Of a DNA stretch of 64,000 nt, positions 1,840-34,332 are shown piece by piece (the first letter of the stretch is position 1; each line of letters starts with the position of its first letter). The stretch spans positions 1-64,000 of the forward strand of contig JACPIU010000040.1 in the NCBI GenBank assembly GCA_016187935.1, read 5' to 3'. The notes beneath the pieces were generated by a model. The model saw only the letters and a list, made by a program, of their open reading frames with translations. It was not told the origin of the DNA and did not search any database. The stretch comes from Bdellovibrio sp. (lineage in GTDB: Bacteria; Bdellovibrionota; Bacteriovoracia; Bacteriovoracales; Bacteriovoracaceae). The translations under genes were made by a program, and so were the position numbers.

Positions 1840-1996
1840 AGCGAGGCTCCCGTGTTTCATTTTCGTTATAGCACAAGTCCGAAAGCAATAACCCCAGTCC
1901 GAGAATACATACAAGCACGCTTGGGATTATCGAGGCCGTGAGTAGAGGCGAAATAAAAAGAACAAGCAAACCACCTAGCGCAAAAAAAATTTGCAT
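1793..1996 (-). CDS. Small membrane protein, 67 aa
   Basis: A 67-residue protein beginning with two hydrophobic segments (about residues 2-20 and 22-40), then a short charged tail rich in Asp, Glu and Arg. It has a good ribosome binding site (GGAG six bases before the ATG at 1996). It starts only 2 bp after the stop of the 303-aa gene upstream and overlaps the PD-(D/E)XK-like gene downstream, so the three probably form one minus-strand operon (2910 to 1393). No family is recognised; the topology suggests an inner-membrane hairpin. Confidence 0.6.
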   Translation of the reverse strand: MQIFFALGGLLVLFISPLLTASIIPSVLVCILGLGLLLSDLCYNENETREPRYDDSRLYRRLVEDIS

Positions 1997-15543: not shown

Positions 15544-16281
15544 TTAAATGAGTGAAAGCAGGCTTTCAAATTTCTGAATATCGTTTCGCCATCTTAATTT
15601 AATCGTCCCTACTCTATCTCCCTGATTCTTGGCCACAATCAACTCTGCAATTTCTTGCTTGGGTGTCAAAGGATCGTAATATTCGTCTCTATACAAAAAC
15701 ATGATGATATCTGCCTCACGCCCTACTGACCAATCTTTGTATAAATCTAGGAGTTGTGGCCTTTTATTCTCTCGATCTTCAAGGTATCGACGTAACTGAG
15801 ACAACAATACAATGGGACACTTTAATTCCTTGGCGATTTGCTTCAATTCGCGCAAGGTACGAACCATTTGACTTTTATGTGGAACCTCGGGGGATGAGGA
15901 ACGCATCAATTGTAAGTTATCAATCACGATCAATCCAACATCCCCGATTCTCGTGCAATTTTCCAGAATATCGGCAGTTGTTTGAGAGATGGAATCACTG
16001 ATGAAAATTGCAGGGAGAGATGGTTCGGGGCATTCGTCCAACCTGGCAAATCGGTCAGAAACTTCGCTAGAGTCTAACTCGTAAGAAAAAAAAGCAACTC
16101 TTTTGTCTGAAGATTTTGCAACATTGTGCGCGAGATTGATACCAAAGGAGGTTTTACCCATCCCAGGGCGACTAGCAAGGATCACAAGTTGGCCTGGGTG
16201 TAATCCCTCAATGAGGCCATCAAGAATATGCCACCCAGTTTTTAATACATTCCCGTTTTTAAAGCGCGAGTGTTCCGGCAT
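15544..16281 (-). CDS. Stand-alone DnaB-type RecA-fold helicase domain
   Basis: A 245-residue protein equal to the C-terminal ATPase half of replicative helicase DnaB. Walker A RPGMGKTS is at residues 38-45, Walker B LIVIDNLQLM at 117-126, the SQLRR sensor at 161-165 and the FLYRDEYY signature at 195-202. The N-terminal primase-binding domain and linker of true DnaB (about 450-470 aa) are absent, and the usual SGSIEQDAD stretch is changed to DWSVGREAD. It may therefore be a phage- or plasmid-type helicase or a non-replicative ATPase. It is the last gene of a minus-strand run with GIY-YIG and DGQHR proteins. Motifs are seen directly; the role is inferred. Confidence 0.85.
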   Translation of the reverse strand: MPEHSRFKNGNVLKTGWHILDGLIEGLHPGQLVILASRPGMGKTSFGINLAHNVAKSSDKRVAFFSYELDSSEVSDRFARLDECPEPSLPAIFISDSISQTTADILENCTRIGDVGLIVIDNLQLMRSSSPEVPHKSQMVRTLRELKQIAKELKCPIVLLSQLRRYLEDRENKRPQLLDLYKDWSVGREADIIMFLYRDEYYDPLTPKQEIAELIVAKNQGDRVGTIKLRWRNDIQKFESLLSLI

Positions 16282-16438
16282 AAATCAATCTTCCAGTTTT
16301 TTCTGTATTAGTTTTACACCACTTGTGATGATTCGTATTAAATGGAAAATATCCATATTTTTCTTTGTGTCATCTTGATCTTCTTTATCTAGAGAACAAA
16401 ATCCTATATGTAGTTTGTGTAGAAGTGGCTTTCAATCA

Positions 16439-16825
16439 TCAGTGCCGTTCGTTCCAAGGTGGAGCATAGTAGCAAATCAAATCACGTTCATATTTCTCCG
16501 CAACTGTGCGGTTTTGGATGCAACACACAGTATAGTGGAATTTTCCATTAAGATGACTCCACCGATTTTTGAGGCGTCCAAAAAGGCTGGAGGAGCATCC
16601 AACATAGACCACATAAAAACCACTCGGAGTTTCATGCAAAAGAATGTATACACCCGTGAGATCAGGTGCTTCATCCCATCGAGTGATATGCCTGATTTGC
16701 TGTCGACGAACATTTCCAAGTGCTCGCTTGCTTGGATTCTTCCATCCAAGCCATCTCGACGCTATGGCACCAAGACGATCTTTTGCATTTAGTACTCCTG
16801 GAAGCGTTCTTCTTTCATAAGACAC
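16439..16825 (-). CDS. GIY-YIG nuclease-domain protein, 128 aa
   Basis: The N-terminal 50 residues are basic and may bind DNA. The GIY-YIG core follows: GVYIL at residues 58-62, VYVGCSSSLFGRL at 73-85, a candidate metal-binding Glu at 110 or 113 and a C-terminal PPWN. The family cuts DNA with a single metal and appears in homing, repair, restriction and defence proteins. The start is a GTG at 16825 with AAAGGAG seven bases upstream, 25 bp after the previous gene, so it is co-transcribed with the DGQHR pair. Target specificity cannot be deduced. Confidence 0.75.
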   Translation of the reverse strand: MSYERRTLPGVLNAKDRLGAIASRWLGWKNPSKRALGNVRRQQIRHITRWDEAPDLTGVYILLHETPSGFYVVYVGCSSSLFGRLKNRWSHLNGKFHYTVCCIQNRTVAEKYERDLICYYAPPWNERH

Positions 16826-16850
16826 AAAAACTCCTTTGTTCTATTGCTAT

Positions 16851-17810
16851 TTATGTATGACCTTCAGTTATGCTAGGGATGGATGCCTGAGTTAACAGAC
16901 AATATTCATCGAAAAGTTTTGTAAGTCTGAACACAATTTTATTTGCAGCAATTTCGGTCTGAAGAAAAGTGCCATCATTAAGAACTATAAAATCGATCCA
17001 CTCATTGTTATAATTCCCGTTACATTCTCTTCTGAGTTCCAAACCTTTTAACCATTCCCAGAAAATTGTTTTAAGCTTATCAGTAGATAAAGAAGCATAG
17101 AACTTTACGAGTCCCACTAAAAAAGCAGGCTGGGTCGTAATATAATCACGTTTAATTTGAAGCCCACCTGGACGTGCAAGTTGATCTATTTCTGGCCGCG
17201 TCGCCTGAAGTTGTGACAGGAATAAAGAGATGGAATCATAAGGTTGGTTCTTTAAAAGCGTTGCTAGATGGGGCAGATATAGCAAGTAAGTATTACTTGT
17301 AGAGGCAAAGTGTTCATTTGTAGTTACTACGGTTGATGAAGGATCAATCCCAACAACGATATCATCTCCCTTCATCTTTACAAGTTCAGAGATGCGCAAA
17401 TCTGACCACATATTGCCTTCACTTTGTCCAAAAGATAAGGTTACTAAAATGGATAGTTGGTTAAGCTGTGCCTCTGCCTCTCTTTTTACGGTTTCTAATA
17501 TGGCAAGAACCGAGTGCCCTTCATCAATTTTGATAGACTCTGGGCCCCCCATCAAAGTCATGCTGGAAATATCACGTTTTCGTCGATTAATGAGAAACTT
17601 CCCTGAATAGTTAGCGAGAATAGGTCCCAGTGGGGCGTTCGACCAGACCGCGTTGGCCGCAATTCTTTCAACGTCCATCTTACGATATCGAATCTTTGGC
17701 TGACGGTTCTGATTTGAAAATAAACTAACAGCATCGGCTCCATCCATCACGGTGGTGAAGGTCAGCTTTTCATCCGGTCCACTTGGAATGCCACGTATGG
17801 TGATTTTCAT
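16851..17810 (-). CDS. Degenerate DGQHR/DndB-like partner protein
   Basis: A 319-residue soluble protein. Residues 93-104 read IKIDEGHSVLAI, matching in position and surroundings the YAIDGQHRVHAL motif of the gene just upstream but with Gln and Arg lost (DEGHS, residues 96-100). The flanking features also fit: an RYRKMDVERIA helix before it and a helical remainder after it. It is probably a diverged paralogue in the ParB/Srx-like DGQHR superfamily, perhaps catalytically inactive. It starts 2 bp after the DndB-like gene, with its GGAG inside that gene, so the pair is likely translated together and may form a heteromer. The assignment is inference from motif alignment by eye. Confidence 0.55.
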   Translation of the reverse strand: MKITIRGIPSGPDEKLTFTTVMDGADAVSLFSNQNRQPKIRYRKMDVERIAANAVWSNAPLGPILANYSGKFLINRRKRDISSMTLMGGPESIKIDEGHSVLAILETVKREAEAQLNQLSILVTLSFGQSEGNMWSDLRISELVKMKGDDIVVGIDPSSTVVTTNEHFASTSNTYLLYLPHLATLLKNQPYDSISLFLSQLQATRPEIDQLARPGGLQIKRDYITTQPAFLVGLVKFYASLSTDKLKTIFWEWLKGLELRRECNGNYNNEWIDFIVLNDGTFLQTEIAANKIVFRLTKLFDEYCLLTQASIPSITEGHT

Positions 17811-17812
17811 AT

Positions 17813-18838
17813 CTACTCCAGAATTTTTTGTGTAATGATTCGCGAAATTTCATCGCGATGGGAATTCCGACGGATAACCTGGGCCTGTGGAAGTGGCAAA
17901 AGGAATGACTCCCAAATCGGGTTGATCCTGGTGCCATGATAACGACACCAATCGATTTCACCCAACCGTTGTTTTATTTTTGTGTCGGGTAAGGCATGGT
18001 CTTTCAGAATATGAAATACAGAGTTAAAGATTGCTTGTAGAAAAAAAGGGTCACAGGCCAAGGACTTCTGGCGTTCGCAGACATCACCATCCCTCACTAA
18101 CTGGTATGCCGGTATTGCTGTCGATATAAGAGATGCGGTTTTAAGGATCAGGGATTCGATAACAGAATTTATTTTTTTATTCACAAGCATCGATTTTGCG
18201 GTAACCATATAGGTATCGTAGAGTTGGGTGAGAGTAAAAAGTTGCGTTGTATTTTTTGGGACAACAGTCCTATTTTTTTCTATCTGGCCCTGAAATCCGG
18301 GAGAATTGTTGGCCATATCCCTGGCGATTCTCAATTCGTCGCTTTGACCAATGGCCGTTAAAACAGTCTTTGATACTCGTTTTGTTGTATTCATCGTGAC
18401 GAACAGGTCTTGCCGCTGCGTTAGAGACAGATTAACAAAAATCTCAATTGATAAGGAATGTCCTTCGTACAATGTGAACTCTTTAGATTTGCCGAGGGCA
18501 CGAAGAGCGTGAACCCTGTGTTGTCCGTCGATGGCGTAAATCTTTGCCGATGAAGGAATGGTAAGTCGACCAAATGGATAATTTCCCAAAGGACGAAAGC
18601 TTGCGGCCTCAGCCGCAAGGGTTATTGTCGGAAGATTGTATGTTTCGGGATTCTGAAGAAGATAATTTTCAATAGTATGAACATGCTTGCGATTTTGTGG
18701 ACGTTGAGGCGCCTGTTCGGCCGGCAGTTCATTCCAATCCACTGATTGGACGATCTGAATTACTTCCTGAAAAGATAATGCCGCGACATACTTTTCATGC
18801 GCCTGTTGCACTTTTTGTGCATAGATTTCAAAGTCCAC
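17813..18838 (-). CDS. DGQHR-domain protein, DndB-like
   Basis: A 341-residue protein with the signature YAIDGQHRVHALRAL (motif at residues 104-108) and the downstream LFVTMNTTKRVSKTV stretch (about 145-158) that marks the DndB/DGQHR family. DndB acts with phosphorothioate (Dnd) DNA modification, and DGQHR proteins also occur in 7-deazaguanine (Dpd) modification clusters. No dndC, dndD, dndE or dpdA is in this window, so this is an orphan or part of another system. The start is a GTG at 18838 with AAAGGAG seven bases upstream. Its neighbours are a 94-aa gene, a degenerate paralogue, a GIY-YIG nuclease and a DnaB-like ATPase, all on the same strand. Confidence 0.8.
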   Translation of the reverse strand: MDFEIYAQKVQQAHEKYVAALSFQEVIQIVQSVDWNELPAEQAPQRPQNRKHVHTIENYLLQNPETYNLPTITLAAEAASFRPLGNYPFGRLTIPSSAKIYAIDGQHRVHALRALGKSKEFTLYEGHSLSIEIFVNLSLTQRQDLFVTMNTTKRVSKTVLTAIGQSDELRIARDMANNSPGFQGQIEKNRTVVPKNTTQLFTLTQLYDTYMVTAKSMLVNKKINSVIESLILKTASLISTAIPAYQLVRDGDVCERQKSLACDPFFLQAIFNSVFHILKDHALPDTKIKQRLGEIDWCRYHGTRINPIWESFLLPLPQAQVIRRNSHRDEISRIITQKILE

Positions 18839-18883
18839 TTTTGACTCCTTTCTAATGAAGTTTGTTCACCTACGGCTTCAGAT

Positions 18884-19168
18884 CTAAGTCAGTAATTCGA
18901 TGCATGATGGCCGGGCCAAAATTTGGCAAAGTTGGGCATACTTTGCGTCGCTGGCAAATTGTCTATACTCACTCAATAATTTTGATTCAGTGTAATGGTT
19001 CTTCCATTCAAATTTCGGTCGCGTCTTTACTCCAGACCCGCACCTCTCTGTGCGCCACGTTAGAACCAATGCGAGAACCCTCGCGTCAGCGACACTATAG
19101 GCGAAGAATTTCTCCTCTTTAGCTACCCGTGGAATTTTGAGCGATCTTGTTGTGACCGTGCGTACCAT
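18884..19168 (-). CDS. Small basic protein heading the DGQHR operon, 94 aa
   Basis: The ATG at 19168 has AAGGAG at good spacing. It is a basic protein of 94 residues with a likely helical C-terminal half and two cysteines, and no family I recognise. It is first in the minus-strand operon 19168-15544 and lies about 50 bp from the nested palindromes at 19219-19263. A small basic first gene next to an operator is often an autoregulator, but no helix-turn-helix is clear here. Confidence 0.5.
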   Translation of the reverse strand: MVRTVTTRSLKIPRVAKEEKFFAYSVADARVLALVLTWRTERCGSGVKTRPKFEWKNHYTESKLLSEYRQFASDAKYAQLCQILARPSCIELLT

Positions 19169-19218
19169 AAGGTACTCCTTTTGTTGTTGAATCTTGACTT
19201 ATTTTATCATATATTTGC

Positions 19219-19263
19219 TATTTCTACGAGATAAATTTTTTAGTATTTCGTAGAAATACTAAA
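19219..19263. promoter_or_regulatory. Nested palindromes between divergent operons (operator)
   Basis: Two overlapping perfect inverted repeats. The first has 11-bp arms TTTAGTATTTC (19239-19249) and GAAATACTAAA (19253-19263) around a 3-base centre. The second has 11-bp arms TATTTCTACGA (19219-19229) and TCGTAGAAATA (19248-19258) separated by 18 bases. They share sequence, so as hairpins they would exclude each other; as protein sites they give half-sites on both faces. They lie between the divergent genes at 19168 (minus) and 19376 (plus), the position expected for a shared operator. Confidence 0.65.
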
Positions 19264-19375
19264 TTAAACTGCAAATACAGTATGTTACGCCGCTAAGTTT
19301 TTCTTGTTGTTTGACGAAAAGTGTTAGGGAAGCGAGGGGAAAGAAGCATGATTGCATAGAATAAAAGAGAATTTT

Positions 19376-22207: not shown

Positions 22208-22215
22208 GGGTGTAT

Positions 22216-24102
22216 ATGAAATTTTTAATCTTTTGTTTTGTAATGCTTCTCGTGTCCTGTTCTTTCAAATCAAAGACTGATGCCCAACCAGAAAGTGCTG
22301 GCGATGGCCAGCATGAAGTTCTTGAAGCGAAGCTCAATCCAAACGCAGATAGTGATGGGGATTTTGTCAAAAATGTTGATGAATTATCCTCTGGGCGAAG
22401 TCCGATGGTGGCCAATATGCCAGAGCTAAGCATTCACTTTCTGCAAAACTATAAAATTACGGCCGATGCCAAGTCAGTTTCCTCAGGTGAAATCAAAAAG
22501 ATTGTCATTGATACAAAAATTGGTCGAAATAATCCCAACTTTAAGTATCGAGTGGGCGAACTATTTGTTTCTTCACATGCACAGAGAGTAGCGGCATCAG
22601 TAAGCCGCTTTTCTTCTCATTCCACTGGTGAAATCGAGGCGCATGATCTGTCCTGGGTAAAGTACCCGGATGTTGACCCGGCCTTTTATTCACAGCAGGT
22701 ACTATGGTATAAAAAGTATTTTGATTCGCCCGACTTTGAAATAGAAAATATAAAAATCACACTGGAAAATACGGTCAAGCTAAAGGGCAACGAGCATTAT
22801 AAAACAGTCAAGAATCTCAAACTCAATTTCTATTTTTACAACTATGAGACGCAGAACTATGAGGTGATCGGTGCCAAGGTAGTAACGCGCCATTTTGAAG
22901 CAGGCGTGGTGGAAACGTTCGAGGTTGAGTTAGACAATGTGCCCGCGCAGCTTATTGAGGATAATTATTTTAAAAAAGGTGAATTCATTATCTCAGAGGT
23001 TGCCGACTACGAGATTCCAGAATTGAATAGCACCTATGAAACTCTCGTTCGTTCAGTAAAGAGTAAGTGTCTTCCCGTCATTGTCACGACGCCTCTTTCA
23101 ACTTCCACTTCTTATGTGAGCGTGGATGGAGGGCCCAAGTCTTCGACATTCTCTCATCTTCTTTCTCACCTTTACGATAAAGGCGTCAAAATTGAAAATG
23201 ACAAGTTGGAGAAAATCAATGAATTTGAAAACAATCTCCCAAACTTTACGTACCTAAAGGAAGTTGCAGCGCTTGATAAAGTGGGCAAATGGTTTGTTTT
23301 GACAAGGCCCATGAAAGAAAATTATCTCGATCATCAGTTTACCCAAGCTGACGTGATTGTTTTGTCCTATGTCACAGGACAAAGCTTGGCGTCACAAAGC
23401 GTAGAAAAAATATATTCCTATGAGGAAAATCTTTCGACTCTTGACACTTTCACACTGACCCCACTTGGGGCCGTTTCAGAGAACAGTATCATAGAATTCC
23501 AGCTCGCCCCTATCAAAAAAATAGGTGAGGACCTTGGGAGCTTTCAAGATGCTTGGGTGAGTGCTGGCGGATCGTGTGGCCAAAATTGCGTGAGATCTGA
23601 GTTTGACTGCCGAATTAGTATCAATCTTTTCAAACCCATTGAACCGGGATTTTCGCTCTCACCCGAATTACCAGAATTCAAAAGAATGTTTTTGATCGTA
23701 GATCAGCAAGAGTTTTCTCTGTATCAACTCTGGAAAGACAAGCAAATTGAAATTCAAAATCTACACAGCAGTATCCATATAAAAATCCCGGACATAAACA
23801 AGATAAAAGAAATTGCCCCAACTGATGAGGCCAATCTCTCATTTAAGATTACAGCGTTTAAAGACACTGTATTTCATGGGGTAAAACTTAACAGCTTTAC
23901 CGGGCGCAATAGGGCCGATTGCCTACCCTTGCTCACGAACTTCGCAGGCCCTAGAGGATTTCCTATCTCTGTAGAGTCAGCAGAATTTGAAGGATGGCGA
24001 GGTGGGGTCAACTGGAATGCGATCAAGTTGGGTGAGAATAAGACATACTTCCAAGGAATGGAAGTCGCCGTCACATCCGTCATCAACAATTTTTACAACT
24101 AA
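22216..24102 (+). CDS. Large conjugation-associated lipoprotein, 628 aa
   Basis: A lipoprotein with VSCSF near residue 15. Directly after the leader comes a NPNADSDGDFVKNVDEL stretch, an Asp-rich calcium-binding loop of the thrombospondin type 3 kind. The rest is beta-rich with several cysteines (CLPVI, CGQNC, FDCR and DCLPLL), likely disulfide-bonded. It has no recognised family. The position immediately before the pilin and VirB3 genes suggests a surface or pilus-tip component of the transfer apparatus, or a mating-pair adhesin. The start is the ATG at 22216 with GGGGT upstream; GTG at 22210 is the alternative. Confidence 0.7.
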   Translation: MKFLIFCFVMLLVSCSFKSKTDAQPESAGDGQHEVLEAKLNPNADSDGDFVKNVDELSSGRSPMVANMPELSIHFLQNYKITADAKSVSSGEIKKIVIDTKIGRNNPNFKYRVGELFVSSHAQRVAASVSRFSSHSTGEIEAHDLSWVKYPDVDPAFYSQQVLWYKKYFDSPDFEIENIKITLENTVKLKGNEHYKTVKNLKLNFYFYNYETQNYEVIGAKVVTRHFEAGVVETFEVELDNVPAQLIEDNYFKKGEFIISEVADYEIPELNSTYETLVRSVKSKCLPVIVTTPLSTSTSYVSVDGGPKSSTFSHLLSHLYDKGVKIENDKLEKINEFENNLPNFTYLKEVAALDKVGKWFVLTRPMKENYLDHQFTQADVIVLSYVTGQSLASQSVEKIYSYEENLSTLDTFTLTPLGAVSENSIIEFQLAPIKKIGEDLGSFQDAWVSAGGSCGQNCVRSEFDCRISINLFKPIEPGFSLSPELPEFKRMFLIVDQQEFSLYQLWKDKQIEIQNLHSSIHIKIPDINKIKEIAPTDEANLSFKITAFKDTVFHGVKLNSFTGRNRADCLPLLTNFAGPRGFPISVESAEFEGWRGGVNWNAIKLGENKTYFQGMEVAVTSVINNFYN

Positions 24103-24119
24103 AACGACCAGGGGGCATT

Positions 24120-24434
24120 ATGCTAAAAACAAGAATTCGAAATTTTACTTTCTGGCCCATTGCCTTTCTCTTGAGCTTTCTTGGGATGGGACTTTTCAAT
24201 CCTAGAAATGCTCAGGCCTTTACTCAGCTTAAAAATGGCTTTGAAAACATCACCAAGACGTATCTTCTCCCACTTTCCGGTGCGGTGGCGGCCTGTGCGC
24301 TCGTTTTGTTCATTACCTTGTCGTATTTCAAAAAAGATGAATATCAAAAGAACGTCGGCAATATTCTGGCGCTGGCCGTTTTCGCACGAGTGGCCTTGAG
24401 TGTAATTGACGCGATCACCAGAAGTTTTAGCTAG
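24120..24434 (+). CDS. VirB2/TrbC-like pilin
   Basis: A 104-residue protein with a long signal sequence ending in NAQA-F (about residues 30-34), leaving a mature protein of about 70 residues with two hydrophobic segments (about 48-68 and 80-98). That is the size and topology of VirB2/TrbC pilins, which polymerise into the conjugative pilus. The short polar KKDEYQK loop between the segments would face the cytoplasm. The ATG has AGGGGG upstream. It is immediately followed by the VirB3-like gene, the canonical order. Sequence similarity to named pilins is too weak to call by motif, so order and topology carry the assignment. Confidence 0.75.
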   Translation: MLKTRIRNFTFWPIAFLLSFLGMGLFNPRNAQAFTQLKNGFENITKTYLLPLSGAVAACALVLFITLSYFKKDEYQKNVGNILALAVFARVALSVIDAITRSFS

Positions 24435-24443
24435 GAGCAGATG

Positions 24444-24707
24444 ATGAAACAAGCAACTTTTCCGGTATTTCTTATGAAGAAAGCACGCATCTTGGGCCCA
24501 CTTACCCGCTTCGATCTGGCAATCCTGGGCGTGGGATATTTCGCATTATCAACACTTCCTATCTCAGGAATTCTTCAGCTTATCTTGCTTGCCGGTGGCC
24601 TGCTTTTTTTTAAGTACATTCAAAAGAAGCTCCCGCCGGGATTTTTCCGCTTTCTTGCATCTTCGCGCCAAATAAAATGGGCCTACCATCTTGGGAGAAA
24701 ATCATGA
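24444..24707 (+). CDS. VirB3/TrbD-like inner-membrane protein
   Basis: An 87-residue protein with two close hydrophobic segments (about residues 22-40 and 42-58) and a basic C-terminal helix. VirB3 anchors to the VirB4 ATPase and the inner membrane. The start at 24444 has AGGAG six bases away; ATG at 24441 is three bases nearer to that site. The stop overlaps the VirB4-like start by an ATGA, as expected for a pair that acts together; in some systems the two are fused. Confidence 0.75.
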   Translation: MKQATFPVFLMKKARILGPLTRFDLAILGVGYFALSTLPISGILQLILLAGGLLFFKYIQKKLPPGFFRFLASSRQIKWAYHLGRKS

Positions 24708-26713
24708 AATGTTTAATTTTTCCGATTGCTGATGTCCAAGGAAATAAGGTTATCGCGGTCTCCGGCAATATGGGCCATTTTTATAAAGTGTTTCCTCCTG
24801 ATCTTGAGCAAATGGTCCCACTGGAATACGAGGGATTTTTTGAGCAGATTTCTGCCTGGCTTGATTGTCTTGATGATAAGGCATACTTCAAGTTCTATTC
24901 TTGGAATGGCCTTTCCTATTTGGAAACGAACTCAAAGGCAGAACTTGTCATTCCCAATGTTACCGCCATCCCCCAAAACGACGCGCTTAAAATATTTTTC
25001 CATGAAAATGAACTCTTTTCGGATATCGGCATCCACGACGATTATCTTTCTTTTCAAGGTAACTACTGGCGCATCCTCTCGGTCAAATCTTGGAGCGCCG
25101 GTGACATCAACCTCGATTTTATACCCGATGGGGTGGATTACGTTTTGGCGGTCAAAAGAAAACCCGCCGAGCAGTCCATCAAGATACTCGATCGCATCAG
25201 ACAAAAACACATAAGTACCTTCTTTAAAGGCAAACGCGATCTTGAAAGCGAAGGCTCGTATTTTGAAGCAGAAGGGCTGATGGAAGATATCGGCCAGGGC
25301 CAAGAGTCTCTTTTTTCTGTAGAACTTTTCTTTGTTTTAAAAGATCTGTCGTTGGAAAGACTCCAGAAAGCGACTTTAGAATTTCAGTCTTTGATGGCGG
25401 CCAAAGGCGTAAAGCTCTATCTCGAAGGGCAATCTCTCCTGCATCTAAAGTCAGGTCTTGGAGAGCTTTTTAATGAACTTATCCCCGGCGTGAAACCAAC
25501 GCTCTCTCTTCGGGCTCATACTGATAAGACCACTCATCTTCGCTATCTCTTGCCTTTGAGGCGTTCGGCACTCATGGATGATGGCATTGAACTGGCCGAC
25601 CAGCGTGGCATCCCCATTTTCTTCGACCCATTCTTAAAATCGCTTAAAAATAAAAATATGCTGGTCACCGGCACCACCGGCGCGGGTAAGTCGGTCTTCG
25701 TTAATAAAATTGTTCATTCAACGATTGATCACCACCCTACTGTAATTTTGGACAAGGGTGGTTCGTATAAACGCCTGGCACTTTATCACGATGGTTACGT
25801 ATTGGAGAATGGATTTAACCCGCTTCAGTTTCGTGATCCTCTTTACCTTCGGGAGTTCATTTTATCCTTGGTTGATCAGGAGACATTCGGAAAACTTGAA
25901 CAAGGCCGTCTCTTGTTTGCCATCAAGACGGCACTAAAGAACGAGCAGGTTCAAAATTTCAGTCAGCTCATCCTCACTCTCGAACCTGATTTTCCAGGTA
26001 TTCACTTTTATTTTGAAGAATGCGGAATTTTCTTCACGGACTCAAGCATTCCTGAGGTTTCAATCCTCTATGTCGATGTTGCGAACTTTCCCAAAGGGAT
26101 TGTGGCCCCGCTGATCATTTTCCTTTTGGAGTATTTTAAGCACATTGAGACAGAAGAAAAGATTTTGGTCTTTGATGAATGCTGGAGTTTTCTAAAACAG
26201 CATGGCAGCTATATCGACGAATGCTTTCGGACCTTTCGAAAAACGGGGGCCCTCCCAATTGCCATTTCCCAGGGACTTCGTGATTTCTCCATCATTGATA
26301 AAACTCTTGCAGATTCCCTTACAAATACCTCCTACTTCAAGGCCTTTTTCCCGCAAGAGTTGGACGAATCATCAGACATCACTCGTGATGACCTCGCACG
26401 CATTCAATCACTTCGTTTTTCTAAAGGCCAGTTTAGTGACTGCTACCTAAAGTCACAAGACAACAAGTATCGCAAAATCATGCGAATTTATCTTACCCCG
26501 CTTGAGCTGGAACTTTTTAATACGGAAATCTCCGACTCTGCCCCGTTCATGCAGTTTTTTAATCAAAACCGGGCCTATTTTTCAAGTAACCAAGAAACCA
26601 TTGACGCTTACATAAGGATCAAATATGGGAACTACGAAGAAAATTCTTATCCTCGCTTTATCTCTGGCCATGACACCGGCCCAGGCGAGCAGTCTCCTAC
26701 TTCCCGACAGTGA
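24704..26713 (+). CDS. VirB4/TrbE-type conjugation ATPase
   Basis: A 669-residue ATPase that powers pilus assembly and DNA transfer from the inner-membrane face. Walker A GTTGAGKS is at residues 323-330 and Walker B ILVFDE at 487-492, inside a FtsK/HerA-like domain (about 300-620). The N-terminal 300 residues match the VirB4 CagE-type domain by position. It is the most recognisable member of the operon. The start at 24704 uses GGGAGAA and an ATGA overlap with virB3; the frame extends to 24677 without a site. Its 3' end overlaps the VirB5-like gene by 89 bp in another frame. Confidence 0.9.
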   Translation: MKCLIFPIADVQGNKVIAVSGNMGHFYKVFPPDLEQMVPLEYEGFFEQISAWLDCLDDKAYFKFYSWNGLSYLETNSKAELVIPNVTAIPQNDALKIFFHENELFSDIGIHDDYLSFQGNYWRILSVKSWSAGDINLDFIPDGVDYVLAVKRKPAEQSIKILDRIRQKHISTFFKGKRDLESEGSYFEAEGLMEDIGQGQESLFSVELFFVLKDLSLERLQKATLEFQSLMAAKGVKLYLEGQSLLHLKSGLGELFNELIPGVKPTLSLRAHTDKTTHLRYLLPLRRSALMDDGIELADQRGIPIFFDPFLKSLKNKNMLVTGTTGAGKSVFVNKIVHSTIDHHPTVILDKGGSYKRLALYHDGYVLENGFNPLQFRDPLYLREFILSLVDQETFGKLEQGRLLFAIKTALKNEQVQNFSQLILTLEPDFPGIHFYFEECGIFFTDSSIPEVSILYVDVANFPKGIVAPLIIFLLEYFKHIETEEKILVFDECWSFLKQHGSYIDECFRTFRKTGALPIAISQGLRDFSIIDKTLADSLTNTSYFKAFFPQELDESSDITRDDLARIQSLRFSKGQFSDCYLKSQDNKYRKIMRIYLTPLELELFNTEISDSAPFMQFFNQNRAYFSSNQETIDAYIRIKYGNYEENSYPRFISGHDTGPGEQSPTSRQ

Positions 26714-27335
26714 TACAGCGGCGCTTATTATGTTGGTTTCCAATACTGCGTCCACTGTCACAAACACGATGAAAATCTTAGAAGTGGCAAAGAAAACCTC
26801 TGACCAGGTTGATAAGTACAATTTTATTGCCATGAGACGCTTTTTTATTGCCCGACGAATTGAGCAACACGTTCAAGATTTAATCGCGGCAAAGAAAATG
26901 AAACCCAGAGGTCTGGCCGAAATCAACCAGGTCCTTCTTCACCTGAAAATTAATCTCCAGGGGCTCAAGAGCAATATTGATTTTTTAGGCAAAGATATTT
27001 TCGAAACAGAGAACTTTGTCGATCGCTACTTTGGCAAAATTGAAAACGCCATGGTTGATGAAGGTGAGGCCAACAATCAGGAATTAAACAGTGCCAGTGA
27101 AGGCGAAATGGTTAAGCATGTGCAGAACACCGCCATGAATACGGCCCTGCAGGCCAAGATCTTATCCAAAGTGAGACGCGACAATCTCGAATACCAGGCG
27201 GTGGATATATCACTTAAAAAATCCGAGGCCATCGAAGCAGTCCGACGCGAGGAATTTTATAAAAAATGGATCGGCATTGAACCAGTAAATAATCTCATGC
27301 TTGGCACACCTCTGACGATGGGAGTCCAGTTATGA
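26625..27335 (+). CDS. VirB5/TrbJ-like periplasmic protein
   Basis: A 236-residue exported protein: a signal peptide ending in AQA-S (about residues 18-22), then an almost entirely helical, coiled-coil-prone body with many Lys, Glu and Asn. That matches VirB5/TrbJ, minor pilus components between VirB4 and VirB6. The ATG at 26625 has AAGGAT at six bases and lies 89 bp inside virB4. The end overlaps the VirB6-like start (ATGA). Position and helical character support the call more than sequence identity does. Confidence 0.65.
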   Translation: MGTTKKILILALSLAMTPAQASSLLLPDSDTAALIMLVSNTASTVTNTMKILEVAKKTSDQVDKYNFIAMRRFFIARRIEQHVQDLIAAKKMKPRGLAEINQVLLHLKINLQGLKSNIDFLGKDIFETENFVDRYFGKIENAMVDEGEANNQELNSASEGEMVKHVQNTAMNTALQAKILSKVRRDNLEYQAVDISLKKSEAIEAVRREEFYKKWIGIEPVNNLMLGTPLTMGVQL

Positions 27336-28777
27336 GCGGTACGATCAAAGGACTCCTCCTAATTCAAGGCCTGGATTTAGGCCATCTTGTTGAAACTTAT
27401 CGTCTCTTCTTCCTGGGCCTTCTTCCCTCCATGTTTGTTTTGGCGGTGCTAATTGAATTTGTAAGCGACCTCTCACCGTTTACATTGGTTAAACGCGCCT
27501 TCATTTCAGTTTTGATTTTAAGCAGTATTTCTACTTTTTATCACAGCACTATCTCTGCCTCCATAGATGCCGCCGACTCAATTTTAGATGAATCCAAGGC
27601 CAGCAATATTCTACTCATGGATATGTTCGATGGTGGTGAATATCTTGATGAATTAAACACCAAACAAGCCGGGACAAATGGTACTCATGATGACTCGGTT
27701 ATTAGTCGCGCCTACACCTTTCTGAAGTACCAGCTCTTTAATGGCTTCGTTAATGACGGACTTACGGTCGTAATCTTTTTTATCACCAAACTGTGCTTTC
27801 TAATTTTAAAGGTCGTCTATTCACTGGTGTACTATTTGGGGATTGGTTTAATCGGGATTCCCTGCATCCTCTATCTCTTCCCAGGAATGGGTGGAGTGAT
27901 GAAGGGGGCCGTCGTTAGCTTTGTCTGGTGTCTCATCGTCCCCCATGTCTTGGTTTTCATCCTGACAATCATCGGAAGCGAAATTAATCGCGGTTATACA
28001 TCCGGCCAAATCATCGGTGGCTCAATCATGGGAACGGCACTTCTGTTTATCTTAACCTTATTTATCGCCTTCACTCCGTTAATTGCCGGAATGATTTTAA
28101 GTGGAAGTGGGATGAGTGGTGCAGGCGGCATTATTGCCACTCTTGGGGCCAACTATGTGATGAGTTTGCCAAAAACTGTTTTAAATCTTGCCGCACTCAA
28201 ATTGAGCGGGGAAAAACTTGGCAATACTGGCCCAAAAATGAAGCTGGCCAGCATGGCAGCGCAAAAAACCTATAACTTTGCCAAACAATCATTTGCCCAG
28301 GCCAGTAGCGCGATGGGATCACCGGCCATGAAGTCGCAAAATCAAAGAACTTCCGCACCCAATTTTAACAGTGCAACTAGTGGGAGGCCTGGCGAGACAG
28401 GAGGCCCAGGCATGGGCCCTGTTAGTGGGCCCAATACACCCAAAGATAGAGAAACTCATGCCAACTCCACGAATCAATCGAGATCAAGTTCTTCTTTAAG
28501 CTCAGCAGGCCATGCAAAAAGCGGCGAAACAACGAAGACACAATCAGGCCAACCAGGCACGAGTCAGGGCAGAGCTGAAACGAAATTTCCGCGTTCGCCC
28601 AGTCATTTAAACCAAGCAAACCAAAATAGCAGGAGGAATTATAATGGAACGGTACCAGAATCTAGGCCAAGCAATCGCACGCATCAAACGCCCCCTAATC
28701 TGGATCGCGGTTATAGGAGTCGTCCTCCAGTTAGGCCTGCTCGTGACCAGCATCATGGTAGTCAACACACGCGATGA
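27332..28777 (+). CDS. VirB6/TrbL-like polytopic membrane protein with disordered tail
   Basis: A 481-residue protein. The first 290 residues hold six or seven hydrophobic segments (about 22-42, 55-72, 140-165, 170-190, 195-215, 225-250 and 255-275), the topology of VirB6/TrbL, the inner-membrane channel component. From about residue 310 the protein becomes low-complexity, rich in Ser, Gly, Pro, Asn, Gln and Arg, with few hydrophobic residues to the end. The last 134 bp are read in another frame as the start of the VirB8-like gene. The start overlaps the VirB5-like stop by 4 bp. The membrane part is directly visible; channel function comes from family knowledge. Confidence 0.75.
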   Translation: MSGTIKGLLLIQGLDLGHLVETYRLFFLGLLPSMFVLAVLIEFVSDLSPFTLVKRAFISVLILSSISTFYHSTISASIDAADSILDESKASNILLMDMFDGGEYLDELNTKQAGTNGTHDDSVISRAYTFLKYQLFNGFVNDGLTVVIFFITKLCFLILKVVYSLVYYLGIGLIGIPCILYLFPGMGGVMKGAVVSFVWCLIVPHVLVFILTIIGSEINRGYTSGQIIGGSIMGTALLFILTLFIAFTPLIAGMILSGSGMSGAGGIIATLGANYVMSLPKTVLNLAALKLSGEKLGNTGPKMKLASMAAQKTYNFAKQSFAQASSAMGSPAMKSQNQRTSAPNFNSATSGRPGETGGPGMGPVSGPNTPKDRETHANSTNQSRSSSSLSSAGHAKSGETTKTQSGQPGTSQGRAETKFPRSPSHLNQANQNSRRNYNGTVPESRPSNRTHQTPPNLDRGYRSRPPVRPARDQHHGSQHTR

Positions 28778-29087
28778 AATCCCCTACTCAACCGTTGAAG
28801 CATGCTACTTTGGCATGAAATCGATCATAGGTAATGCTCCAGACCCCGACTTGGTTTCGTCTCAAGTCATTAATGATCTCACCCAGCAAAAATTCAACGT
28901 CGAAGACATCACATTGGTGAAGCTGGTTGATCTCTATTTGTGTGATGTGGTGGTGCGAGATACGCGAGGATTTAGAAGCTATGCGGTTACCTTGGAGAAA
29001 AATCTAAACTTCCCGCACCTCTACCGCATCCTAGACGTGAAGGGGCAAAAGCTCGTGTCTGAATATCAGTGGGAGAAGTCTCTATGA
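28644..29087 (+). CDS. VirB8/TraE-like bitopic protein
   Basis: A 147-residue protein with a single hydrophobic segment at about residues 18-40 and a periplasmic domain of about 100 residues. The layout, short cytoplasmic N terminus plus one span plus a compact domain, is that of VirB8 or F-type TraE, assembly factors of the inner-membrane complex. It is shorter than most VirB8 proteins (about 220-240 aa). It has an excellent GGAGGAATT before its ATG although this lies 134 bp inside the VirB6-like frame. The stop overlaps the next start (ATGA). Confidence 0.6.
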   Translation: MERYQNLGQAIARIKRPLIWIAVIGVVLQLGLLVTSIMVVNTRDEIPYSTVEACYFGMKSIIGNAPDPDLVSSQVINDLTQQKFNVEDITLVKLVDLYLCDVVVRDTRGFRSYAVTLEKNLNFPHLYRILDVKGQKLVSEYQWEKSL

Positions 29088-29566
29088 TTTACTATATCTT
29101 CAAACACCAAATTTTCACGCTCTTCTTGTCACTGGCGCACCTGACGGCCGTGACCTTTGAGAGTGCCGTCTTTGATTTTGTCGGAGGCGAGGCCGCTGAC
29201 TTTAAGGTCTATGAGTTGAACAAAGGCAAGAGTCTGGTTTTTGAACCTAAGAAAAAAGATTTTAACCGGAACTTCATCACATTTTTAAAAGATAAGAAAT
29301 ATTATTTCAATCTCGTTCAAAGCGATACCCTCGCGGACAAAGACATCGAGATCAAAGATGGTGAACCGTGCAATAACCTCACACTCATCAAAGACACATC
29401 TGACTACCAGCTCTTTCGTTGTCCAAAGTCCCTTTTTTTCGTCAATAAAAAAGCAATTCCCGTCAAGGTAGGCGACCAAACTATTACGGACAAGAGCTAC
29501 ATTTCAAAAGGCCCTCCTGTTTATGTAGACGGGACGCTTATCTATTACCAAGGCCGTTCTCTATGA
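29084..29566 (+). CDS. VirB9/TrbG-like outer-membrane complex protein
   Basis: A 160-residue exported protein with an N-terminal hydrophobic leader. The VYELNKGKSLVFEP...RNFITFL...YYFNL series matches the N-terminal beta domain of VirB9/TrbG/TraK, in which a conserved Y-x-F/NL strand pair binds VirB10. The protein is shorter than VirB9 (about 260-290 aa), so the C-terminal beta-sandwich that binds VirB7 appears reduced. The start at 29084 has GGGAGAAG and overlaps the preceding stop; the end overlaps the VirB10-like start. The gene order B8-B9-B10 supports the call. Confidence 0.65.
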   Translation: MIYYIFKHQIFTLFLSLAHLTAVTFESAVFDFVGGEAADFKVYELNKGKSLVFEPKKKDFNRNFITFLKDKKYYFNLVQSDTLADKDIEIKDGEPCNNLTLIKDTSDYQLFRCPKSLFFVNKKAIPVKVGDQTITDKSYISKGPPVYVDGTLIYYQGRSL

Positions 29567-30357
29567 AGATTCTTATCCTGCTCTTTTATCCGGCCTTATG
29601 CCTCTCTGGGTTCTCAGACTTGTCTGATGCTGAACTCTATCAATACAGGCCACCCGTGCAATCCAAGAAGTTGATACGCGCAGTGATTCATACAAGGCCA
29701 AACTCAGGTGAGCTGGCGCAAATAGAGCGCGACATCTTAAAACAAGACAAGGAGACTGCCGAAATTTTGAAGGCCCAAGGCAAGACTCTTCAAGTGCGCA
29801 AAAAAGACGACAAGATTTTGGCCCTCACCAGAGTTCATGGCCAAATTTTAAATTCTATTCTTGCCATGAACACGCACCCATCAACCTTCATTGTGCGCTT
29901 GTCCCATGACAATGAACTCGTTCATGGTGGGGAACTGCGCTGCCAGGGTTACTCTTTTGAAAAAAGAATCCCGGCCAAATGTGATTTGCTCATCATGGAT
30001 GAGCATGAGTATCAGGTGGATGTCGATATTTGGGATATTGATGGGGCCCAGGGAATTATCGCCGACTATTTTTACGATGGCGAGGAGAAGGCCTTTTTGA
30101 CCTCAAGCTTTGCCTCTTTTATGCAAGGAATCGTTGATGTAGCCAAGGACAGAATCACAACGCCCTTTGGTGAGGCCACCAGAAATAATGCCAAGAACAA
30201 AGTTTTGAATGGACTCATGAGTGTTGGCGAGAACGCCCAAAAGAAAGTGGCCGAGTCGGGGGAGAAAAATCTTCAGATTGGTTACGTAAATTCCGGCAAG
30301 CAGGTCCTTGTCTTTTTTAATCAGACATTAAATCTCACACTGGAGGAAGGCCGATGA
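29563..30357 (+). CDS. VirB10/TrbI-like core-complex protein
   Basis: A 264-residue protein. The C-terminal part contains the VirB10/TrbI fold: LTRVHGQILNSILAMNTHPS (about residues 87-106), then strands through ELRCQGYSFEKR, a helical antenna-like segment and a final QVLVFFNQTL strand. VirB10 normally spans the inner membrane through an N-terminal helix and joins ATPase energy to the outer-membrane pore. Here the N terminus resembles a cleavable signal peptide (about residues 1-17) and a proline-rich linker is short. Either it is anchored differently or the leader is retained as an anchor. It overlaps both neighbours by 4 bp. Confidence 0.75.
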   Translation: MKILILLFYPALCLSGFSDLSDAELYQYRPPVQSKKLIRAVIHTRPNSGELAQIERDILKQDKETAEILKAQGKTLQVRKKDDKILALTRVHGQILNSILAMNTHPSTFIVRLSHDNELVHGGELRCQGYSFEKRIPAKCDLLIMDEHEYQVDVDIWDIDGAQGIIADYFYDGEEKAFLTSSFASFMQGIVDVAKDRITTPFGEATRNNAKNKVLNGLMSVGENAQKKVAESGEKNLQIGYVNSGKQVLVFFNQTLNLTLEEGR

Positions 30358-30899
30358 GAAAGCGAACACAAATTTTAATTTTACTCTGCCTTCTGATTTT
30401 TTCTTCATGCTCAAGCATGAAAAAAACCATTATCTACAGCGCACTTACGGGGGGCCTGGTTGGTGCCAGTGCCGGGGCCATCTTCAGTCCTGATGTTGAG
30501 AGTCGCGGTGCCAATGCCGCCATCTTTGGTCTGATTGGAGCTGGACTCGCGACACTTACGGGTTATGCCCTTTATCAAGACGACCCCAGAAACTATCCCT
30601 TAAGCAATATGCTTCTTGATTCTCCGATCAAAGAAAAACCAAATGAGTTAGAGCTTGGGCCTCCGCAATTTAAGATCAACGCCAATCTGGAAAAAAAGGA
30701 GGCCTATCCCGTGCCGGTGAAAGACCTGCCGCCCGCGCTGGAGGGCAAGGTCAACAAGCAGTATCTCATTAAGTACGAATCCAAGGAGCAGTACCTAAAA
30801 AAGGGCGGGAGAACATTTTATGTGCCGGCCTTTGATATTTATGAGCATGCCTATGGCGAAAACATGCAAACACTAGAGGGGGATGACAATGACAAGTAA
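30354..30899 (+). CDS. Conjugation lipoprotein with glycine-zipper segments
   Basis: A 181-residue lipoprotein (FSSCSS lipobox near residue 19) with two Gly/Ala-rich hydrophobic segments (about 30-50 and 58-74) of glycine-zipper type and a soluble C-terminal domain of 100 residues. VirB7/TraV lipoproteins stabilise the outer-membrane pore, and this is the only lipoprotein in the B8-B10 block, so an equivalent role is likely although it is larger and has added hydrophobic segments. The start overlaps the VirB10-like stop by 4 bp; the last 11 bp overlap the coupling-protein start. Confidence 0.65.
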   Translation: MRKRTQILILLCLLIFSSCSSMKKTIIYSALTGGLVGASAGAIFSPDVESRGANAAIFGLIGAGLATLTGYALYQDDPRNYPLSNMLLDSPIKEKPNELELGPPQFKINANLEKKEAYPVPVKDLPPALEGKVNKQYLIKYESKEQYLKKGGRTFYVPAFDIYEHAYGENMQTLEGDDNDK

Positions 30900-32400
30900 G
30901 AAGAAAAATCACGACGATGGACTTGGCGACTGGATTGTTCCTGTTATTGATTTGATGTCGATCTTGATTCAAAAAATTTTCGAGCTTTCGGTCTGGTTAG
31001 TCACCAAGCTCCTTACGGAATATGTGTTCAAAGAAAGAAGAAACGAGGAGGTCAAGAAAATCAATCGCGAGGACTTGAAGGTAAAGCATGCGACCTTAAG
31101 CGAGAATGCGCTTGGGTACTCTATCACAAAAAAACGCAACATCATGATGGGCGAGATTGACCGTAGGATGCACACCATGGTTGTCGGTGCTTCAGGTTTC
31201 GGGAAGTCAGTCGCTCTTGATGTCCTTATGTATGACGACATGAGAAATGGCAAGCCAGTCATCATGATTGATCCCAAGGGGAGCAATAAGACACTACAAA
31301 ACTTTATTAACATGTGCCGGCTGACTAAGCGTGAGTACCAAATATTCTCACATTATTATGAAGGAGACGGCAGAATTGCACTCAATCCTGCCAAAGATGG
31401 AAGTGCCACAAGTATTGCAGATCGAATTCATTATGCCTTTTTGTGGTCTGATGCCCATTATGAAACCCTTTGCTATCGTGCACTAAAGAAGGCATGTTCT
31501 CTTCTTTTAGAGAAGCAAGAGAAGATATCGCTTGAAAGCATCTGGAAAAAATTGCATGACATCTCTGATCCAAACGATAAGGAACATCTCTTTGAGAGAA
31601 AGAACATTGATGGGATTATTGCCAGGCTTGAGAACATTGTAGAGTCCGACTTTGGGCCTAAACTTAAAAGCTCCGGGGCCTCTTTTGCTGACATCTGGTC
31701 AAAAAAGAAATGCATCTATATTGGACTTCCGGTCCTTGCCCACCCGCGTATTGCCCGTGCCTTAGGTAAAATTATTTTAGGAGACCTCGCTTATGCGGTC
31801 TCTGAGAACTACAAAATTGCCACAATTGAAGGAAATGACCAATTCACCCCTGTGGGTGTTTATATTGATGAGCTATCTGCCGTCATCACGGATGAATTTA
31901 TTGAATTAGAAAACAAGTGCCGAGAGGCCAAGATGGAGCTGACACTTGCCTTTCAGTCTCCCGCAGATATCAACAAGGTCAACCCAGAACTCTGCCAGCA
32001 AATCTTCGAGAATGGTTCAAACTGGCTTATCTTTAAGCAGAGGATGGAGGCCGCGGCCAGTCTCTTCTCTCAGGCCATCGGGACAGTAAGCGGTAAGAAG
32101 AGAACCATTCGAGTTGAGGGCGAAAAAGAGTCCGAGCTTGGCAGCCAACGAGAAGTTGAAGAGATGATTACTCACAACAACATCTTCAAGAATTTAGACA
32201 TAGGCCAATGCGTTTTGCTCAGACATGCGCCCACAAAAGTCGACCTCATAAATGTAAAACACCTCGACCCTAAAACTGTTTTAAGCAACGTCAACTTTTT
32301 TGAAGAAAAGGGGCATATTACAAAAAGGCCACGAGTTCCTAATGCAAACAATGTACAGAGCAATCCTGATATCGTGGGCCATGTAACTGGGAGACATTAA
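30889..32400 (+). CDS. VirD4/TraD-type coupling ATPase (T4CP)
   Basis: A 503-residue ATPase that brings the relaxosome to the secretion channel. Walker A GASGFGKS is at residues 100-107 and Walker B VYIDE at about 324-328. A FDPKGSN-like IDPKGS motif follows strand 2, and a C-terminal half resembles the TraM-recognition part of TraD. The N-terminal 60 residues hold one amphipathic or membrane helix (about 15-45), fewer than the usual two spans. The start at 30889 has GAGGGGG at seven bases; ATG at 30883 overlaps that site. The stop codon TAA overlaps the next ATG (TAATG). Motifs are seen directly and the family is certain. Confidence 0.88.
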   Translation: MTSKKKNHDDGLGDWIVPVIDLMSILIQKIFELSVWLVTKLLTEYVFKERRNEEVKKINREDLKVKHATLSENALGYSITKKRNIMMGEIDRRMHTMVVGASGFGKSVALDVLMYDDMRNGKPVIMIDPKGSNKTLQNFINMCRLTKREYQIFSHYYEGDGRIALNPAKDGSATSIADRIHYAFLWSDAHYETLCYRALKKACSLLLEKQEKISLESIWKKLHDISDPNDKEHLFERKNIDGIIARLENIVESDFGPKLKSSGASFADIWSKKKCIYIGLPVLAHPRIARALGKIILGDLAYAVSENYKIATIEGNDQFTPVGVYIDELSAVITDEFIELENKCREAKMELTLAFQSPADINKVNPELCQQIFENGSNWLIFKQRMEAAASLFSQAIGTVSGKKRTIRVEGEKESELGSQREVEEMITHNNIFKNLDIGQCVLLRHAPTKVDLINVKHLDPKTVLSNVNFFEEKGHITKRPRVPNANNVQSNPDIVGHVTGRH

Positions 32401-33089
32401 TGCAAAACTTTAGTCCCCTTGGTACATACCTTGAAATTGTAAATACTATAGGCCGATGGAAGGTCATCCCACTTCCAGGACTCTTTGAATCGTTTTCCAA
32501 GCAGATGACCTATACGCCTTTTGCCAAGCGAGTCCAAGCACTTGAGCGAGCTGGATTAATAAGAGCGTTTACAAAAAATAGAACGAAGTATCTTGTATTG
32601 ACCCAGGAGGGAAGTCGCGTATCAAAGTACAAAAATTACTACAACGAAAATGAAGATTCGTTAAATCATGACATGATTGCGGCGAACATTCTTCGACAAC
32701 TGCTCAGGTTTGAGAACTTCCAAGAAGGCCATATGTTTGTGGATGACCGATGGGATATCGACCCAGATGCGGTGATTTTTGCAAAGCGAGGTGATGCCAA
32801 ATATACCCTTGCCATTGAAGTTGAACTTACTCAAAAGGTCCGAACGAGAGTCGTCAATAAGTTCTCCAAATACGGTTTGGGCAAAAATCTTAATCATGCT
32901 CTTTATATTTTCAACAAAGAAAGTTGCTTTGAGGCCTACAAACAAATTTTAGGAGGTATGAATGATACAACTCAAGGAAAAATTATTTTGTGCTGTGACA
33001 CAGGGCTTTCGTTCGAAAACTTTAGCTACATCGAAAGTACATGCTGGCATCGAGAAGCTCAGCACTCGTTTTTGCAAATCTTCAAATAG
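32400..33089 (+). CDS. Replication-relaxation-like winged-helix protein
   Basis: A 229-residue soluble protein. Residues 10-75 form a winged helix (FAKRVQALERAGLIRAFTK...YLVLTQEG), and the rest (about 85-229) is an alpha/beta domain with HDMIAANILRQL and DPDAVIFAKRG...AIEVELTQK stretches. The latter has a D...ExE-type nuclease-like pattern. This arrangement fits the replication-relaxation family (PF13814) found beside conjugation genes in elements without a classical relaxase. It lies directly after the coupling protein and just before the long inverted repeat, where a relaxase or its DNA-binding partner would be expected. No His-rich relaxase motif or catalytic Tyr cluster is visible. Confidence 0.6.
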   Translation: MQNFSPLGTYLEIVNTIGRWKVIPLPGLFESFSKQMTYTPFAKRVQALERAGLIRAFTKNRTKYLVLTQEGSRVSKYKNYYNENEDSLNHDMIAANILRQLLRFENFQEGHMFVDDRWDIDPDAVIFAKRGDAKYTLAIEVELTQKVRTRVVNKFSKYGLGKNLNHALYIFNKESCFEAYKQILGGMNDTTQGKIILCCDTGLSFENFSYIESTCWHREAQHSFLQIFK

Positions 33090-34068: not shown

Positions 34069-34332
34069 GTGACTGAAAATTCTCTGAACATTGATTACAA
34101 CTCGTCTCTATCGCGCTATAGTGCCCTTGCCGAGTCTCACGATTCGGCAAGGCTCTTTTACAATAAGAAAATATGGCGCGTGAAAGACGTGGCAAGATTT
34201 TTAGATTGCTCAGTTGGGCATATCTATAATCTTGTCTCAGATGAGAAGATACCGAAAATCAAAAAGGGCAAGTTCGTCTATTTCATTCCAGACGACATCC
34301 TTAGCTGGGTGTTAGAAGGAGATGTAACATGA
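34069..34332 (+). CDS. Excisionase-like helix-turn-helix protein
   Basis: An 87-residue protein with a C-terminal MerR/HTH_17-type motif (WRVKDVARFLDCSVGHIYNLV, about residues 38-58, then GKFVYFIPDDILSW). These proteins act as excisionases (Xis), steering the adjacent integrase, or as repressors. The start is a GTG at 34069 with AGGAGG at eight bases. The stop overlaps the integrase ATG by 4 bp, so the two are translated together, as is usual for xis-int. The N-terminal 35 residues are unlike known Xis proteins. Confidence 0.75.
   Translation: MTENSLNIDYNSSLSRYSALAESHDSARLFYNKKIWRVKDVARFLDCSVGHIYNLVSDEKIPKIKKGKFVYFIPDDILSWVLEGDVT

Follow-up and report, generated by a model that had tools for sequence, protein, structure and literature searches.

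We analysed a window of 64,000 nucleotides (nt) of DNA from Bdellovibrio sp., which makes up the first 64 kb of contig JACPIU010000040.1 (137 kb; assembly GCA_016187935.1); the contig belongs to a 4.4-Mb genome of 99.25% completeness. Within this window, five open reading frames (ORFs) are arranged in a single run on the minus strand, from position 19168 down to 15544, and all of them have intact frames; they include the genes for a DndB-like protein with a DGQHR motif (gene 2) and for a small GIY-YIG nuclease (gene 4), carried by an integrative conjugative element (ICE; Table 1). From gene 1 to gene 5, the intergenic gaps measure 45, 2, 25 and 157 nt, and clear AGGAG-type ribosome-binding sites were recognized for genes 1, 2 and 4. 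An earlier note, made from the sequence alone, had listed in this run a small basic protein, a DndB-like DGQHR protein, a degenerate DGQHR partner, a GIY-YIG nuclease domain and a stand-alone DnaB-type ATPase, located in an ICE and lacking modification enzymes; our analyses bear out this description, with the degenerate partner being likely only.

Table 1. Features of the five-gene module and of the element that carries it, with positions in the window (aa, amino acids; HMM, hidden Markov model)
Feature	Position	Strand	Basis
Gene 1: 94-aa basic protein	18884..19168	-	ORF; no convincing family in four libraries
Gene 2: 341-aa DGQHR protein (DndB-like, ParB/Srx-superfamily)	17813..18838	-	PF14072, TIGR03187, motifs
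Gene 3: 319-aa diverged, probably DndB-like partner; DEGHS in place of DGQHR	16851..17810	-	BLASTP, HMM, hhalign
Gene 4: 128-aa GIY-YIG nuclease; GVY, YVG, Arg, Glu, Asn catalytic positions	16439..16825	-	PADLOC, HMM, alignment
Gene 5: 245-aa DnaB-derived ATPase domain	15544..16281	-	PF03796, alignment
Putative operator: 21-nt inverted repeat, 18/21 paired, 10-nt spacer	19213..19264	.	upstream of gene 1
Conserved transfer block (VirB4/TraC- and TraD-like ATPases among others)	22210..33089	+	profile matches, gene-order comparison
Tyrosine recombinase, adjoins tRNA-Ala	34329..35591	+	profile match
tRNA-Ala	35676-35751	-	

The product of gene 2 belongs to family PF14072 (E 2.3e-42; 145.7 bits against a cut-off of 29.1) and also exceeds the cut-off of TIGR03187 (118.7 against 58.85 bits). 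Its DGQHR, FxxxN and QR motifs are intact, DGQHR being invariant in the alignment. The protein falls below the equivalog cut-offs of DndB (TIGR03233; 89.3 against 328 bits) and DpdB (27.5 against 300 bits), and below the cut-off of GmrSD_N (DUF262; 14.8 against 33.2 bits). A published analysis links DGQHR proteins to DUF262/GmrSD_N and to the ParB/Srx fold (PMC4619093). An alignment of eight DGQHR sequences was too diverse for scanning, and a scan with a three-sequence alignment found nothing; nor did close-relative scans of viral contigs with genes 2 and 3, or of genome contigs with gene 3.

Gene 4 lies under Pfam detection, with no match to PF01541, and was recognized by the PADLOC profile PDC-S14 (E 4e-7). 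Furthermore, it scores 14.3 bits to an HMM built from five other DGQHR-linked GIY-YIG proteins, the best of 500 shuffled sequences reaching 7.1 bits, and its GVY, YVG, R, E and N residues align with those of the same five proteins. A convergent ORF of 234 aa at 14660-15364 on the plus strand, GIY-YIG-like by eye (IYLIR ... AWGTASDLGQRLRK), was discarded as unsupported, as it scores 0.5 bits to the same HMM.

The pairing of a DGQHR gene with a GIY-YIG gene recurs outside the window. A search for the DGQHR family over 369 genomes of the phylum returned 10 loci above the cut-off, three of which hold a small GIY-YIG gene: the window itself and genomes G330 and G113. The two genes overlap by 22 nt in G330, with relaxase- and integrase-like genes nearby and no modification genes; at the G113 locus the order is a PAPS-reductase-type gene, the GIY-YIG gene and the DGQHR gene. 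The ten genomes have 1-3 Pfam-detectable GIY-YIG places each, around half of them of UvrC length; assuming 2-10 GIY-YIG genes per genome, figures that are our own, three pairs in ten loci would arise by chance with a probability of about 2e-7 to 3e-5. On plasmid pROLI83 of Roseobacter litoralis, the GIY-YIG gene stands between those for PAPS reductase and the DGQHR protein, in a cluster of cysteine desulfurase, DUF4007, ATPase and PAPS reductase, and plasmid searches with either the GIY-YIG or the DGQHR protein of pROLI83 return the same five records. In two Rhizobium plasmids the paired genes overlap by 1 nt, being adjacent to dndBCDE in strain NXC14 and placed among SIR2, PIN and FtsK-type genes, that is, in a defence island, in strain K1/93. 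Plasmid searches with the GIY-YIG proteins of the window, G330 and G113 gave no matches. In the tree, the GIY-linked DGQHR proteins may share one origin. Open-access literature, searched by text, yielded no paper naming such a pair; the DGQHR/GIY-YIG core is a recurring two-gene unit that apparently had not been described. The overlapping pair was seen on Rhizobium and Roseobacter plasmids at loci L306 (7483-9242), L307 (7411-9287) and L297 (4462-6242), where the GIY-YIG gene is annotated only as hypothetical.

The earlier note had proposed looking for the five genes together in other genomes. The pair does recur, and the full set was not found elsewhere in the genomes, phages, plasmids and contigs searched; as a system, the set of five stays hypothetical and seems so far unique to this genome. 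This result, together with the 157 nt that set the DnaB-like gene apart, leaves some room for an explanation by chance, in which the DGQHR regulator, the GIY-YIG gene and the DnaB-like gene had separate origins and became neighbours in the cargo region of the element. We regard this as improbable, given that the first four genes are packed with gaps of 45 nt or less and that the DGQHR/GIY-YIG pairing recurs in diverged lineages.

The degenerate DGQHR partner encoded by gene 3 matched no family in the profile libraries. Its relationship to gene 2 is indicated by BLASTP (E 5e-4); by an HMM of 24 relatives, which scores gene 3 at 7.1 bits (best of 300 shuffles, 3.0); and by hhalign, with a score of 25.8 (best of 40 shuffles, 20.0) and a colinear alignment that runs from DEGHS opposite DGQHR through to QIKRDYI of gene 3 opposite the conserved LRRDYI of the (K/R)RDYI region. 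Because the probability that hhalign itself assigns to the homology is just 5%, we hold gene 3 to be a probable degenerate DGQHR paralog, the weak but consistent signals being suggestive rather than proof. No relatives of gene 3 were found in 97 related genomes, phages, plasmids and two contig collections, the contig scans detecting close relatives only, and its single-sequence AlphaFold model (predicted local distance difference test score, pLDDT, of 34) was unusable for a fold search. At two other loci in the phylum, L039 (9135-11201) and L042 (8038-9833), the gene that comes directly after the DGQHR gene encodes about 320 aa; these two second proteins are alike by eye and unlike the partner in the window.

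The protein of gene 1 has an isoelectric point of 9.8 and no relatives were found for it; its single-sequence AlphaFold model is all-helical and of low confidence (pLDDT 52), too poor for a fold search. It is a candidate DNA-binding or regulatory protein. The inverted repeat upstream of this gene is composed of two 15-nt palindromes, TATTTCTACGA(A/G)ATA, and contains TACG-N20-CGTA; an equally good 21-nt repeat appeared in none of 300 Markov-resampled copies of the region, and, of 1586 upstream regions taken as background, 6 contain a pair with the N20 spacing. In Salmonella, DndB binds to TACG-N10-CGTA and acts as the repressor of its own operon (PMC4507180), and several TACG/CGTA half-sites are present in the promoters of true dndB genes of Salmonella Infantis, Pseudoalteromonas and Priestia. 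By this comparison, the palindrome is a putative operator through which the DndB-like or the small basic protein would probably repress the operon; autorepression by gene 2 is plausible, and gene 1 could equally be the repressor.

Gene 5, which follows the widest gap, is the least certain member of the module and may have its own promoter. It matches PF03796 (E 4.7e-58; 197 bits against a cut-off of 27) and scores 209.6 bits to the DnaB profile TIGR00665, under the full-length cut-off of 385.25. The DnaB N-terminal domain and linker are absent, and there is an internal deletion of about 23 residues. Walker A and B are retained, as is the catalytic Glu; the otherwise constant RESG.IEQDAD motif is altered, and the Arg of the putative arginine finger (KNR position) is replaced by Gln, the roles of these residues being those generally attributed to them in DnaB. 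Because of this combination of kept and changed residues, the protein is likely to be an ATPase, though perhaps without helicase activity. Its identity is mostly 40-48% to the chromosomal DnaB of the family and up to 39% to phage helicases. A phage replication cluster, the alternative raised in the earlier note, was rejected, as no phage genes were recognized nearby and the similarity to DnaB is not phage-specific. No second stand-alone DnaB-like gene was found beside a DGQHR gene.

The module is situated around 3 kb upstream of the transfer block, whose gene order is kept in related genomes and whose VirB4/TraC- and TraD-like ATPases lie at 24677-26713 and 30883-32400. The tyrosine recombinase and the tRNA-Ala likely mark the right end of the element; the left end is either outside the contig or was not recognized in it, and a search for a second copy of the tRNA-Ala 3' end or a second attachment site found none. 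Among the related elements that were examined, the block itself is conserved and the upstream region, which corresponds to that of the module, varies. In G030, an Eco57I-type methylase with a BsuBI/PstI nuclease lies there along with a GmrSD_N protein and a protein with a RelA/SpoT domain; G014 has a type IIG-like system in this place, and G035 a ThiF and JAB-domain protein and an M78-peptidase protein with hits to defence profiles. This suggests that the element family has a defence cargo region upstream of its transfer block. Restriction-modification and other defence-like genes were seen upstream of the transfer block of related elements at loci L316 (1862-6381), L315 (1592-6302) and L314 (2858-7123). 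In the window, the plus-strand gene at 3323-4393 encodes a WYL/WCX-domain regulator, a kind often tied to defence loci, and two ORFs with no family match, at 20770-21510 (plus strand; GSDVVL...KIQLK) and 1393-1914 (minus strand; WDFEI...VDIK), carry PD-(D/E)XK-like motifs by eye and are possibly further nuclease cargo.

As for modification partners, the window showed no modification enzymes, and fragments of modification genes were not found either; no DpdA was noticed among the window ORFs, no search having been aimed at it. In the genome as a whole, neither DndC (TIGR03183) nor DUF4007 (PF13182, SspB-like and a marker of Ssp) was detected, both profiles being recovered from controls (genomes G038 and G270, respectively). 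One rival explanation is that the module is the remnant of a Dnd- or Ssp-type phosphorothioation cluster whose modification genes have been lost, the rest being regulators or decaying parts. The nearest sequences to gene 2 are indeed true DndB proteins, the operator resembles a DndB site, and gene 3 has lost the DGQHR motif and gene 5 conserved DnaB residues. However, the five frames are intact, three of them with good ribosome-binding sites, the catalytic residues of the GIY-YIG nuclease are kept, both modification markers are missing from the genome and no fragments of modification genes were found, and the pair also occurs without modification genes in G330; we give this explanation the same low credence as chance assembly. 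Two further loci concern modification systems. Locus L044 (G113 contig 81), possibly a Dpd-like locus, has queuosine/preQ0-type genes beside a DGQHR-related protein of 411 aa with DSAHR for DGQHR. The true dnd cluster of locus L007 (G038 contig 66), formed by cysteine desulfurase, DndB, DndC, DndD and DndE, adjoins a second group that comprises a superfamily 2 helicase, an ABC-type ATPase and a possibly DndI-like DGQQR protein.

Judging from what the sequence shows, namely the genes with their motifs, the repeated occurrence of the pair and the type of its neighbours, we propose, with a confidence a little short of even, that the run is a cargo anti-invader operon of the ICE with a two-gene restriction device as its core. 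The DndB-like DGQHR protein, a predicted DNA binder and nucleoside triphosphatase (NTPase) of the ParB/Srx superfamily, would sense the state of incoming DNA, and its nucleotide cycle would license nicking or cutting of this DNA by the separate GIY-YIG nuclease. The assignment of sensor and cutter is by analogy with DndI, in which the ATPase activity of a DGQQR NTPase domain is needed for phage defence and controls DNA binding by the nuclease part (PMC11662687). The logic would be that of GmrSD, SspE and DndI, which likewise link a DNA nuclease to an NTPase of the ParB/Srx superfamily that bears a DGQ(Q/H)R motif. In those systems, however, a DGQQR (DUF262/GmrSD_N) NTPase domain is joined to an HNH nuclease domain, whereas here the NTPase is of the DndB/DGQHR family, the GIY-YIG nuclease is encoded by a separate gene, an extra degenerate DGQHR-like protein is present, and no HNH family was found in the five proteins by profile searches. 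DndB is a homodimer (PMC4507180); here, gene 3 and the active DGQHR protein would probably form a heterodimer with gene 3 as the regulatory subunit. DndI and SspE work with phosphorothioation, DndI sparing phosphorothioated self DNA; GmrSD, which lacks self-modification, acts on modified DNA. As phosphorothioation genes are missing from the host, the device, if it discriminates between DNAs, would most likely be type IV-like, cutting modified or otherwise foreign DNA rather than sparing modified self DNA. As for the DnaB-derived ATPase, it may either act on the replication of invaders as an accessory or be a neighbour outside the system.

A more inclusive version, in which all five genes form one anti-invader machine, with an active/inactive DndB-type heterodimer recognizing invading DNA and directing the GIY-YIG nuclease while the DnaB-derived ATPase stops or poisons the DnaB-dependent replication of the invader, appears to us improbable, slightly more so than chance assembly. 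Returning to the two-gene core, its recurrence beside phosphorothioation genes and in a defence island makes a defence role plausible, and we favour such a role, short of proof, because the corresponding cargo region of relatives holds restriction and defence genes. The suggestion in the earlier note of a modification sensor or a phage- and plasmid-control system therefore survives as a plausible defence function, and not as five genes acting as one recurring system.

Known loci resemble the core in part. The Ssp-like and Dnd loci of pROLI83 and NXC14 share coupled GIY-YIG and DGQHR genes, but phosphorothioation genes are present there, the order is GIY-YIG then DGQHR, and neither a degenerate partner nor a DnaB-like gene accompanies them. 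A survey of Dnd loci placed GIY-YIG (URI) nucleases at locus edges and proposed them as stand-alone suicide back-up effectors, a similar closeness of GIY-YIG to a Dnd-type locus; centred on the DndD/DndE core, it describes, in the part consulted, no DGQHR/GIY-YIG pair, nor one without modification genes (PMC10853773). CMoRE (PD-T4-3), a type IV GIY-YIG enzyme of modification-dependent restriction (PMC12923530), is a single protein with a fused C-terminal sensing domain and a GIYxY motif, whereas gene 4 has neither (GVYILL, 128 aa).

Conjugative plasmids of the IncN and IncL/M groups and of Pseudomonas likewise carry stand-alone DndB-like genes with no modification genes nearby, which brings in a further rival: a factor for element maintenance or inter-element conflict, in which the DGQHR protein acts like these plasmid proteins or like Osa, helping establishment or blocking the transfer of rivals, with the nuclease in support. 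Conjugative plasmids commonly carry such genes (of 338 plasmid records, 280 were typed as conjugative), often near antirestriction, umuD or radC genes. Osa has a ParB/Srx domain (PMC4619093) and inhibits the transfer of rival plasmids via the coupling protein (PMC5696584). The plasmid DndB-like proteins are, however, longer (mostly 425-560 aa), form their own tree group and have no GIY-YIG gene beside those examined, and it is to loci of phosphorothioation and defence that the GIY-YIG pairing points; we consider this explanation unlikely, though less so than a remnant or chance assembly. Longer stand-alone DndB-like genes were observed at loci L003, L004, L293, L294 and L296, on IncN, IncL/M, Pseudomonas, Aeromonas and Vibrio plasmids, often near umuD, ardR, antirestriction or radC genes.

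Several observations weigh against the restriction device that we favour. DndB has been described as a repressor, not as a nuclease-linked sensor (PMC4507180), and gene 2, a PF14072 member with the DGQHR motif and a candidate operator with TACG/CGTA half-sites, is nearest in sequence to true DndB, although its branch in the tree is long and its placement unsure. It differs from DndB in falling under the equivalog cut-off, in having no dndC in its genome and in a half-site spacing of 20 rather than the 10 of Salmonella; the operator comparison itself is not uniform, as the true dndB promoter of G038 has no TACG/CGTA pair. Gene 3 separates the DGQHR and GIY-YIG genes of the window, which are close and not adjacent. 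Finally, the DGQHR/GIY-YIG pair is a real but minority association: a DNA pattern drew 56 viral DGQHR loci and 28 from genome contigs, many of them short, and a motif search revealed a GIY-YIG neighbour at none of these.

On mobile elements, DndB-like DGQHR proteins are often encoded without modification genes, and the recurring coupled GIY-YIG nuclease leads to the hypothesis that DGQHR proteins, like DUF262 proteins, may be NTP-driven sensors controlling a nuclease. If so, the GmrSD/SspE/DndI group would gain a nuclease type and a split architecture, and the unassigned hypothetical genes that adjoin DGQHR genes in Rhizobium and Roseobacter would be accounted for. Outside the element, the window also encodes a protein of 613 aa (51895-53736, plus strand) with many Cys-containing repeats of the pattern C-R/H-x-V/G-P-G.

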